Shown piece by piece: positions 11,345 to 43,450 of a stretch of DNA of 64,000 nucleotides (the stretch's first letter is position 1; every line of letters begins with the position of its first letter). Origin of the DNA: Drouetiella hepatica Uher 2000/2452 (GTDB lineage: Bacteria > Cyanobacteriota > Cyanobacteriia > Elainellales > Elainellaceae). The stretch covers positions 1 through 64,000 of the forward strand of contig JAHHHD010000002.1 of the NCBI GenBank assembly GCA_019359505.1, given 5' to 3'. The translations under genes and the position numbers were made by a program. Below the pieces are notes generated by a model. It ran no database searches and was not told where the DNA came from. It saw only the letters and a list, made by a program, of their open reading frames with translations.

Positions 11345-11347
11345 CTT

Positions 11348-11444
11348 CAGTAGATCACAAGTCCTCCTAATTTTTTCTAAAAGCTGGATTTCAAAGGCGC
11401 TCTGCGCCTTTGAAATCCAGCTTTTAGGGTTTTGTGATCTACTG
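11348..11444. repeat. Palindromic interspersed element, family B, copy 1
   Basis: This is a nested palindrome. Outer arms CAGTAGATCACAA / TTGTGATCTACTG (11348-11360, 11432-11444) enclose an inner near-perfect stem, CTAAAAGCTGGATTTCAAAG... with its complement (11377-11428). AGCTT flanks both sides (11343-11347, 11445-11449), a possible short target duplication. A second copy of the inner part lies at 43361-43450. The inner hairpin may also terminate the DUF4330 transcript. Confidence 0.8.
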
Positions 11445-11523
11445 AGCTTCAACAAATTTAACGACACCTCCAGGCAGATCGGCATAGCCTGAAAGAACGG
11501 ATCTTGTCTGAGGAGCCAGAAGC

Positions 11524-14070
11524 ATGGAAAGGATCGATCGCATCCAGTGGCTACAGCAAAATACTCCGTTCGGCTCTGTGTCTGAGCAGGGGATAGAAGC
11601 GATCGCCTCAGCCCTGCAAGTCAAAATCCTGCAAGAGAACCGCCGCTTAGCCCTGGAAGACACGTCTCCAGCCGCGCTGTATATTCTCAAATCCGGACGG
11701 CTAGAGGCTTATCGCACCAGCGCCGACAGTCTCGCCCATGCCAGCAGTTTGCTACCCGGCTCCGTGCTACATCTGAAAGAGCTGCTGCTCGATCGACCCG
11801 CAGAGCAAACAGTCATCACTCTATGCGACTGCGAAATTTGGGAAATTCCACGGCAGGAATTTGTAGCGATCGCCCAGCAATATCCCGAAATCAGCCGCAG
11901 CTTTTCGCAGCAGTTGGCAGCAGAACTGGAGCAAGCAACCACACAGCTTGCCTTTGAACAAGAGCGGCAGACCGCACTGCGTCCCTATCTTATGCCCAAA
12001 GTGAGGCAGGGTGTGGTGGGAGCAAGTCGCTATGCCGTGCGATTGCGGCAAGAGGTTCGTAAAGCTTCTGGCAATCGCCAGCCTGTGCTGATCTTTGGCG
12101 AACCGGGGCTAGGCAAAGACAATATTGCTGCCCTAATTCACTTCGGCTCCAGTGACCGCAAGCAGCCCTTGATCAAAGTCAACTGCGACACGCTACAACC
12201 TAACGGAGTCGAGCTGTTTGGGCGATCGGGCGGCAAGCCAGGGCTATTGGAGTGGCTGGGCACAGGGACGCTGATGCTCAACAATGCCCAGGACTTGCCC
12301 AAAGATCTAGAAAGCAAAATTCAGCAGGTGTTAGCCACCGGAGAGTATTTGCCTGTGAGTCGAGAAGGGGCGGAAGCGCTAGAAGTGAAGCGATCGCAAG
12401 CCCGCATCCTAATGACTGCCGAGCGCAATCTGCCAACCGCCTTGGACGACAAAAAGCTGGGAACTCAGGTGATCAAAGTGCCGCCCCTGCGCGTCATCAA
12501 AGCCGATATTGCAGCACAAGTCACCTACTACATCAGCCTTTTCTGTCGCGGTAAAGGATTGCCTCAGCCTAAAGTTGCGCCAGAGGCTCTGCGCCGTTTG
12601 CAAGGCTACGATTTTCCCGGCAACCTGGCGGAGCTGGAAAGCCTGGTAGGACGAGCCATCATTCAATCAAACGGTGCGCCCGTCCTAACTGAAGAGGTGT
12701 TTTGGTCTACGAGCACCAAGGGTAGAAGGTTTCGGCTGAATTTGCTCAATGCCTATCCCAATTTACGGCAGTTTTTGAGGAGTCCCTGGTGGCCCGATCG
12801 CATTAACTATGGGTTTACATCCTGGTTTTTTGCGATCGTCCTTGCCGTTTTGTTTCTAGGTCCTCAAAGCCGCGATGCCAATATTGCCCTGAATTTTTTC
12901 TGGGCATGGTGGTGGCTGCTGGTGCTGGTGGCATTTCCGTTTGTCGGGCGGCTCTGGTGTTCCGTTTGTCCCTTTATGATTTACGGCGAACTGACTCAAA
13001 AGCTCTCGCTGAAGCTATTTCCGCGCAAGCTGCTCCCCTGGCCTCGTCAGCAGGCAGAACAGTGGGGCGGCTGGTTCTTGTACGGGCTATTCGCTTTAAT
13101 TTTACTCTGGGAAGAACTCTGGAATTTGGAAAATACTGCCTATCTGTCTGCCTGTCTACTGCTGCTGATTACTGCTGGAGCCATGATCTTCTCGGCATTG
13201 TTCGAGCGCCGCTTCTGGTGTCGCTATCTTTGTCCGATCGGCGGTATGAACGGTATGTTTGGCAAGCTAGCCATGGTTGAGCTGCGTGCCCAGCAAGGCA
13301 TTTGCGCCGCATCTTGCACCACCTATCAATGCTATAAGGGCGGTCCTCAAAAAGGCGAAGGTTTAGAAACGGGCGGCTGTCCGGTCTATTCTCATCCGGC
13401 ACAGCTCCAAGACAACCGCGACTGCGTACTGTGCATGACTTGCCTCAAAGCCTGTCCCCATCGATCGGTTGAGCTAAACCTGCGCCCACCGGGAATTGAA
13501 CTCTGGACAACCCACACACCCACCCCTCATGAGGTTGCCCTCCTGTTTCTGCTGCTGGGAGCGGTTTTTCTGCACCACTTGCCTCAAATTGCCGATTGGC
13601 TCAGTCGCGCCATCGGTCTGCCGATCGACCTAAAGCAGTTTGGCATCCACGTCAGCCTGTCGATCGTCATGCTAATAGCACCAGGAGCGATCGCTCTTCT
13701 CTGCCACCAGCTCATTCGTCTCTTCAATCCGCGTAACGTTAAATCTTTCAATTTTGTCAGGCTTGCCTATGGCTACTTGCCGCTGGTGCTGGGGGCAAAC
13801 ATAGCGCACTACCTGCATCTGGGTTTGAGTGAAATGGGGCGCGTAGCTCCTGTTACCCTGGCAACGATCGGTCTTAGCGGAATCTCGGCTCCGGTCATTG
13901 TGGCTGATCCGGCGGTCATTGCCTTTCTTCAGGGCACAGTGATGATAGCAACAGCACTGCTCAGCATCATCTTGACCCAAAAAATTGCCCATCAGTCGTG
14001 GCAATCGCTAGTATCACAGCACATGACAACTCTGGGCTTTACGATGCTACTGTGGCAAGTCATTCTCTAA
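11524..14070 (+). CDS. Cyclic-nucleotide-binding / degenerate AAA+ / membrane polyferredoxin fusion
   Basis: This 848-residue protein joins three modules. Residues about 10-135 are a CRP/CNB-like sensor. Residues about 165-400 resemble the sigma54-activator AAA+ domain, but Walker A reads GEPGLGKD (192-199, Asp for Thr/Ser). The Walker B acidic pair is replaced by Asn-Asn (TLMLNN, about 249-254), and no GAFTGA loop is present. Residues about 420-650 form a NapH/NosR-type membrane ferredoxin: CSVCP (C479, C482), CRYLCP (C566, C570) and a full CxxCxxCxxxCP cluster (C634, C637, C640, C644) between transmembrane helices. More helices follow to the C-terminus. Cyanobacteria lack sigma54, so promoter activation is unlikely. 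I infer a ligand-sensing membrane electron-transfer protein. Its partners are unknown. Confidence 0.85.
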   Translation: MERIDRIQWLQQNTPFGSVSEQGIEAIASALQVKILQENRRLALEDTSPAALYILKSGRLEAYRTSADSLAHASSLLPGSVLHLKELLLDRPAEQTVITLCDCEIWEIPRQEFVAIAQQYPEISRSFSQQLAAELEQATTQLAFEQERQTALRPYLMPKVRQGVVGASRYAVRLRQEVRKASGNRQPVLIFGEPGLGKDNIAALIHFGSSDRKQPLIKVNCDTLQPNGVELFGRSGGKPGLLEWLGTGTLMLNNAQDLPKDLESKIQQVLATGEYLPVSREGAEALEVKRSQARILMTAERNLPTALDDKKLGTQVIKVPPLRVIKADIAAQVTYYISLFCRGKGLPQPKVAPEALRRLQGYDFPGNLAELESLVGRAIIQSNGAPVLTEEVFWSTSTKGRRFRLNLLNAYPNLRQFLRSPWWPDRINYGFTSWFFAIVLAVLFLGPQSRDANIALNFFWAWWWLLVLVAFPFVGRLWCSVCPFMIYGELTQKLSLKLFPRKLLPWPRQQAEQWGGWFLYGLFALILLWEELWNLENTAYLSACLLLLITAGAMIFSALFERRFWCRYLCPIGGMNGMFGKLAMVELRAQQGICAASCTTYQCYKGGPQKGEGLETGGCPVYSHPAQLQDNRDCVLCMTCLKACPHRSVELNLRPPGIELWTTHTPTPHEVALLFLLLGAVFLHHLPQIADWLSRAIGLPIDLKQFGIHVSLSIVMLIAPGAIALLCHQLIRLFNPRNVKSFNFVRLAYGYLPLVLGANIAHYLHLGLSEMGRVAPVTLATIGLSGISAPVIVADPAVIAFLQGTVMIATALLSIILTQKIAHQSWQSLVSQHMTTLGFTMLLWQVIL

Positions 14071-43359: not shown

Positions 43360-43360
43360 T

Positions 43361-43450
43361 AGATCACAAAGTCATCCTAGGTTTTTCCAAAAGCTGGATT
43401 TCAGAGGCGCAGAGCGCCTTTGAAATCCAGCTTTTAGGGTTTTGTGGCTC
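43361..43450. repeat. Palindromic interspersed element, family B, copy 2
   Basis: AGATCACAAAGTCATCCTAG, then a stem AAAAGCTGGATTTCAGAGGCGC with its complement GCGCCTTTGAAATCCAGCTTTT, then AGGGTTTTGTGGCTC. Order and sequence match copy 1 at 11348-11444, but the outer arm on the right is decayed. Confidence 0.85.

Follow-up and report, generated by a model that had tools for sequence, protein, structure and literature searches.

NapH-type proteins combine membrane helices that bear C-rich motifs with a ferredoxin segment, and in CRP and PKA the Glu and Arg of the phosphate-binding cassette hold the cyclic phosphate. The polyferredoxin of the FTR1 ferrous-iron system goes by the name FtrD (see the accessible part of PMC11966278). 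The window analyzed here, a 64,000-nucleotide stretch of the Drouetiella hepatica Uher 2000/2452 genome, encodes a protein in which a cyclic nucleotide-binding (CNB) domain, a sigma54-type AAA+ domain, and a membrane polyferredoxin lie in a single chain, as a sequence-only reading had proposed and as Pfam and NCBIfam matches confirm. The features of the gene, in window coordinates, are as follows.

11524..14070, + strand: whole ORF, ATG start, 848 amino acids plus stop (full-length orthologues)
11632..11883, + strand: CNB-fold domain with degenerate phosphate-binding cassette, residues 37 to 120 (PF00027 cNMP_binding, E = 1e-11)
11887..12012, + strand: predicted long helix linking CNB and AAA+ domains, residues 122 to 163 (AF2 secondary structure; pLDDT <50 over 147 to 165)
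12016..12459, + strand: AAA+ core of sigma54-activator type, residues 165 to 312 (PF00158 Sigma54_activat, E = 2.7e-16; Foldseek)
12097..12123, + strand: degenerate Walker A, GEPGLGKDN, residues 192 to 200 (alignment)
12271..12285, + strand: degenerate Walker B, LMLNN, residues 250 to 254 (both residues Asn in 120 of 124 group A proteins)
12499..12693, + strand: AAA+ lid, residues 326 to 390 (PF25601 AAA_lid_14, E = 1.3e-8)
12787..13200, + strand: predicted transmembrane helices 1 to 4 of the NapH-like unit, residues 422 to 559 (AF2 helices, hydropathy peaks, loop charge count)
12958..12969, + strand: first CxxCP motif, C479 and C482 (188 of 188 relatives)
13219..13233, + strand: second motif, CxxxCP, C566 and C570 (188 of 188 relatives)
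13303..13458, + strand: ferredoxin-type segment with eight Cys (594, 598, 603, 619, 634, 637, 640, and 644) and room for two [4Fe-4S] clusters (188 of 188 relatives; poorly modeled)
13504..14067, + strand: C-terminal tail with about five predicted membrane helices, residues 661 to 848 (AF2; BLASTP match to the stand-alone Deinococcus protein L171:9965-11320)

The domain order is plain from the sequence matches, which include Fer4_5 (Pfam, E = 2.6e-11), and because orthologues that are 52 to 70% identical align with the protein from end to end, the ORF is not an assembly fusion. The membrane tail of about 190 residues has no Pfam match of its own. This tail, the AAA+ lid, and the absence of arginine fingers had been missed in the sequence-only reading.

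The explanation that we prefer, with a probability of roughly 0.5, is that the protein is a membrane electron-transfer unit that faces the cytosol and is capped by an ATPase-dead AAA+/CNB-like platform. The membrane half would be a NapH/FtrD-like polyferredoxin with its clusters toward the cytosol, and its most likely job would be electron transfer between the quinone pool and a redox partner in the cytosol (or associated with the membrane). The cytosolic half would descend from the AAA+ domain of a sigma54 activator, would neither hydrolyze ATP nor contact sigma54, and would now most likely act as an oligomerization and conformational platform. Of the three groups described below, group B would have kept the ability to hold a nucleotide, which group A may have lost. 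The CNB-like domain may be an optional sensor or docking domain, with a partner other than a classical cyclic nucleotide. Cluster loading, the link to quinone, oligomerization, and gating are what we infer in this model.

Matches at an E value of 0.001 or better were found in 150 of 292 genomes sampled across the phylum, with at most three candidates scored per genome. By a hand count of the match listing, 73 of the 292 genomes have a strong match (E <1e-50), all of them in the window's class, and one of these matches (G284) is a fragment. Outside the class, every match listed is to a single domain (e.g., a genuine activator with GAYTGA in L050). The best 80 named loci are all cyanobacterial, a set that may miss more distant holders; A2 took in 46 of these loci and A3 took in 74. 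Based on the best match to three reference proteins, we sorted 184 proteins into group A (126 proteins, including that of the window), group B (32 proteins), and group C (26 proteins). Identity to the window protein is about 36 to 39% for group B and 40 to 48%, over the part covered, for group C, which comes from one picocyanobacterial family. In a tree of the membrane half rooted with Deinococcus, groups B and C are each monophyletic (support of 1.0), and group A is unresolved (support of 0.098). The window's genome has a single copy of the gene and no group B gene. Two proteins, L224:2346-5708 and L225:2143-5505 (1121 amino acids), have the order CNB-AAA-AAA-polyferredoxin, which is an internal duplication of the AAA+ domain; the 182-row alignment used below is the set of 184 minus these two.

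This is a widespread cyanobacterial protein, apparently without a described function. Literature searches aimed at the family, mostly outside subscription journals, found no paper on it, and the accessible part of PMC7042703 contains nothing on it. Public records name group B members "cyclic nucleotide-binding domain-containing protein" or "nitrogen assimilation regulatory protein." A role in core photosynthesis is disfavored because the group C protein finds no match in 40 of the 75 near-complete picocyanobacterial genomes that were sampled. Synechocystis slr2059, which we took to be a candidate relative, was rejected as a family member and regarded as a small ferredoxin, on the basis of its description rather than its sequence. 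In the accessible parts of PMC4284462, PMC8887894, and PMC4307280, slr2059 is ferredoxin Fed9/Fx9, with mutated cluster cysteines numbered 84 to 125.

The AAA+ core has an activator-type lid, as supported by PF00158, PF25601, and Foldseek, and its predicted fold is closest to the structures of NtrC1, NtrX, FlrC, and PspF (top Foldseek matches; full AF2 model with a mean pLDDT of 75 and a pTM of 0.50). The presence of Asp instead of Thr/Ser in Walker A had been taken as one sign that this domain is dead. Asp does follow the Lys of the window's GEPGLGKDN, in which GxxGxGK is intact, but it is not the damage, because the true activators PspF, NtrX, and L050 carry Glu at that position. The other two losses that had been noticed hold up: both acidic residues of Walker B are Asn, and GAFTGA is found in 0 of the 182 aligned members. 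The arginine-finger motif FRxDLxxR is likewise absent from all 182, and none of the 124 proteins of group A, the 32 of group B, or the 26 of group C has the Walker B Glu. With Asn-Asn in Walker B and with GAFTGA and the arginine fingers gone, the domain is not a normal sigma54 activator ATPase, as had been proposed. There is no DNA-binding domain among the Pfam matches of the protein. The related statement that cyanobacteria have no sigma54 is borne out in the window's genome, which has no match to the sigma54 DNA-binding domain PF04552; among 194 genomes of the class, four have short matches (33 to 41 of 160 model positions), and the only one above the cutoff covers 38 positions in a 94-amino-acid frame.

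The three groups differ in what they retain of Walker A. The pattern GxxxxGK is retained in only 36 of 124 group A proteins, the window protein among them; Glu replaces the last Gly of the P-loop in 81 of these 124 and in 25 of the 26 proteins of group C. Gly192, Glu193, Gly195, Leu196, Lys198, and Asp199 are each found in all 124 of the group A proteins. Group B has [AG]xxxxGK[ST] in 30 of 32 proteins (first residue Ala in 19 and Gly in 12), and its Walker B has Asp at the first acidic position in 14 of 32 and Asn at the second in 28 of 32. Intact Walker motifs elsewhere had been named as evidence that would speak against a dead site, and half of this was found: Walker A is intact in group B, but the Walker B Glu is absent there, as are GAFTGA and the arginine fingers. 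Since Walker A is kept and the Walker B Glu is not, we predict that the group B AAA+ domain may bind ATP but should not hydrolyze it. That of group A, judged by its motifs, probably neither binds nor hydrolyzes ATP.

The CNB fold is supported by PF00027 and by PDB sequence matches. When the window protein is aligned with the PKA-type CNB domain 5j3u, the cassette Glu and Arg positions are Leu84 and Ala93. Group A has Leu at position 84 in 112 of 124 proteins and Ala or Thr at position 93 in 103 of 124, while group B has Tyr at position 84 in 29 of 32 and Tyr or His at position 93 in 31 of 32; no protein among the 124 of group A or the 32 of group B has the phosphate-binding Glu or Arg there. 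Since both residues are absent, a classical cyclic nucleotide is an unlikely ligand. Using a profile built from groups A and B, we found the CNB domain in 122 of 126 group A, 31 of 32 group B, and 0 of 26 group C proteins, which leaves 31 of 184 relatives without it (4, 1, and 26, respectively). The domain is optional. The "cyclic-nucleotide-type sensor" of the sequence-only reading thus stands as a fold and is weak as a cyclic nucleotide sensor, and ligand-gated electron transfer is possible. The CNB part of one group B protein (L031:4816-7437, − strand) matches a family 2B encapsulin model (E = 7.6e-6, 25 bits, cutoff of 400), and this match probably comes through the CNB domain alone.

An explanation in which the AAA+ and CNB domains are decaying relics of a neutral fusion would fit the degenerate motifs and the patchy occurrence of the CNB domain, but it does not fit the selection on these domains. 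For the window protein compared with L071, L072, and L074, dN/dS is 0.07 to 0.10 in the AAA+ core, 0.01 to 0.05 in the lid, 0.07 to 0.09 in the CNB domain, and 0.005 to 0.016 in the Fe-S segment, and is looser in the tail (0.14 in the only pair for which it was computable). Across these comparisons, dS is near saturation in several cells, and three cells (membrane helices and tail) and one cell (linker) were not computable. In addition, the degenerate motifs are almost invariant in group A, which together with the low dN/dS indicates that the degenerate AAA+ site is, by these measures, kept under purifying selection and is not decaying. We therefore disfavor the neutral fusion, which we consider extremely improbable. 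What the motif losses and their retention suggest instead is that a gene-activator motor without its running parts probably now serves as a scaffold or switch.

The redox half is NapH-like, as had been claimed, and every cluster cysteine is conserved. The set of 184 proteins was picked by three cysteine patterns, which biases its cysteine and Fe-S figures, and so the cysteine count was repeated on 188 proteins picked by BLAST alone: all 12 Cys of the redox half are present in 188 of 188, and His624 is kept in 187 of 188. The first cluster motif is irregularly spaced. In group A, the Fe-S segment is the most conserved part of the protein, with a mean majority-residue share of 0.94, compared with 0.73 for the AAA+ domain and 0.60 for the CNB domain, in rows that were picked by cysteine motifs. 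With helices set by hand from the model, the loops contain 22 Lys and Arg in 170 residues on the side assumed to be cytosolic versus 4 in 59 residues on the other side. As modest evidence, this charge difference fits a predicted topology in which the N terminus and the clusters are cytosolic. The model of the membrane half has a pTM of 0.79 and a pLDDT of <50 over most of the ferredoxin segment; with this segment so poorly modeled, Foldseek found no similar fold at an E value of 0.001 or better, and the best VIA-align Z score was 5.0. A bis-His heme in the tail (H684 and H762) is not supported, and these candidate ligands are not conserved in group C, in which position 762 is Arg in 22 of 26 proteins.

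Weaker relatives occur on haloarchaeal plasmids. Outside the window, the same genome encodes two other Fer4_5 membrane proteins, L236:982-2706 and L235:274-2124 (574 and 616 amino acids), which are not family members, are alike by eye, and of which one lies behind an ORF resembling WD40 repeats. A Sulfurovum plasmid has a row of genes (L239:5216-11294) for two Fer4_5 proteins, a 2-hydroxyacyl-CoA dehydratase-family protein, an activase, and a TauE/SafE-family exporter.

The redox half stands without a cap in Deinococcus, and the AAA+ domain is in tandem in L224 and L225, which indicates that the cap is modular. This bears on the possibility that the protein is a redox sensor rather than a conduit, i.e., that the clusters sense the quinone or ferredoxin pool and alter the cap, which then signals to a partner in a form of one-component membrane signaling. 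The cap is of regulator ancestry, is predicted to lie on the same side as the clusters, and is kept under selection, and group B genes are near response genes in some loci, all of which speaks for a sensor. However, the protein has no output domain (none that binds DNA among its Pfam matches) and no known partner gene, and its redox half both occurs without a cap and is better conserved than the cap. A sensor is possible, although we consider it rather unlikely, and the electron-transfer unit remains the reading that we prefer.

Gene neighborhoods were compared over 8-kb and about 4-kb flanks for group A, using ORFs only. No conserved operon or neighbor of group A was found, whether in the 80 named loci and the window or among the group A loci of an earlier set, so the neighborhood names neither the donor nor the acceptor of electrons. 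DUF4330 occurs in 7 of 81 group A neighborhoods. In the window, the Pfam matches of the six flanking genes are DUF4330, alpha/beta hydrolase, M48 peptidase, pentapeptide repeat, CobS, and PTPS, and no NtcA box (GTAN8TAC) was found in about 400 bases around the start of the gene. A hairpin of ~92 to 106 bp lies between the DUF4330 gene and the family gene (11345 to 11450), and another lies at 43360 to 43446. This repeat is found at about 35 genomic positions (66 matches, which in many cases are the two strands of one copy), has a predicted RNA folding energy of −63 kcal/mol, and is MITE-like or terminator-like.

Group B, unlike group A, has a conserved neighbor. In 23 of its 32 loci, a cysteine synthase gene on the same strand lies within 6 kb, and in 16 of these 23 the distance is at most 40 bases; the count for group A is 2 of 81 (Fisher P = 1e-14, with related genomes that are not independent). 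The 32 loci, from about 42 group B loci found, were counted after the duplicate L228 was dropped. Near group B genes we also found rhodanese (7 of 32), PetC (5 of 32), PsbA (5 of 32), DUF2892 (4 of 32), CydA (3 of 32), and FeoB (3 of 32), each of which is near 0 or 1 of 81 group A genes, as well as DsrE-like (2 of 32) and TauE-like (2 of 32) genes; all markers except cysteine synthase were picked after the loci had been read, and their P values are indicative only. ArsR is no different between the groups (4 of 32 versus 8 of 81), and none of the eleven markers is present at 14 of the 32 loci of group B. In the accessible text of PMC5295598, psbA1, petC, and genes for DUF2892 and rhodanese form a likely cotranscribed set induced under microoxic conditions in Acaryochloris, with a similar set in Synechocystis, and psbA and petC are raised by polysulfide in Synechococcus PCC 7002 (available portion of PMC12466478). 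For group B, the neighborhood points to a role under microoxic or sulfidic conditions.

One possible explanation for these neighbors is that the protein, at least in group B, is a sulfur-linked reductase or supply unit that provides electrons for making or recycling sulfide, which cysteine synthase then fixes, or for sulfide tolerance. The position of cysteine synthase and the rhodanese, DsrE-like, and TauE-like genes are consistent with this, but the markers other than cysteine synthase were chosen with the group B loci in view, and cysteine synthase is near so few group A genes that the sulfur-linked explanation does not account for the window's gene. We consider it quite unlikely.

Another possibility is metal handling, in which the protein would be a reductase or would help in uptake, by analogy with the FtrD polyferredoxin of the FTR1 system. 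Distant proteobacterial relatives, in Azospirillum and Rhizobium, adjoin FTR1 genes, and in addition to FeoB near some group B genes, group C genes are near a FUR-family regulator (L041, L045, L070, and L151) or an ABC-3 type metal permease gene (L043, L044, and L151), calls that are based on Pfam runs on one example of each. Most group C loci have neither, however, and these metal-gene neighbors occur in only some of the picocyanobacterial genomes; the FtrD-like protein is 24% identical, and Pfam found no FTR1 among the window's six flanking genes. Metal handling is thus very unlikely as the function of the family.

A more specific form of the electron-transfer model is a membrane redox switch of a new class, in which a ring of ATPase-dead AAA+ domains, derived from sigma54 activators and no longer engaged in transcription, on the cytosolic face of the polyferredoxin would gate electron flow between plastoquinone and a cytosolic carrier, group A being the general form and group B an ATP-binding form for microoxic or sulfidic conditions. 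Taken with all of its parts, this version is doubtful. If the preferred electron-transfer model is correct, the family would clearly exemplify how the motor of a transcription activator can be put to use as a structural component of an electron-transfer protein, with the group B paralogue pointing to a role in adaptation to low oxygen or sulfide.

Among known systems, NapH/MauN, the quinol dehydrogenase ferredoxin subunit, shares with the protein membrane helices, C-rich motifs, and a ferredoxin segment. The protein matches the NapH/MauN model at residues 473 to 651 (NCBIfam, E = 3.8e-14), but at 52.8 to 54.8 bits it is far below the curated cutoff of 213.05, and it differs in the spacing of the first cluster motif, in the added membrane tail, in the fused CNB and AAA+ domains, and in the lack of any Nap gene among the six flanking genes scanned. 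Like FtrD, it has a Fer4_5 membrane unit with paired C-rich motifs. The 24% identity to the FtrD-like protein holds only over the matched stretch, however, and the Azospirillum protein lacks most of the first ferredoxin motif. FtrD-type genes adjoin FTR1 and an iron transporter (with a cupredoxin gene as well in Rhizobium), none of which was seen at the window gene. The 4Fe-4S protein of Deinococcus ficus plasmid pDFI1 (WP_027463891.1) is 30% identical over nearly the whole redox half, including the tail, and has Cys at all 12 aligned positions, but it has no CNB and no AAA+ domain. The sigma54 activators NtrC, PspF, and NtrX share the AAA+ core and lid, whereas the family protein lacks GAFTGA, arginine fingers, and a DNA-binding domain, has Asn-Asn in Walker B, and is encoded in a genome without sigma54. 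The CNB domains of CRP and PKA resemble that of the family in a sequence match to the fold and differ in the phosphate-binding Glu and Arg, which groups A and B lack. The component parts are of known kinds, while their combination, its spread in cyanobacteria, and the retention of a dead AAA+ site are new.
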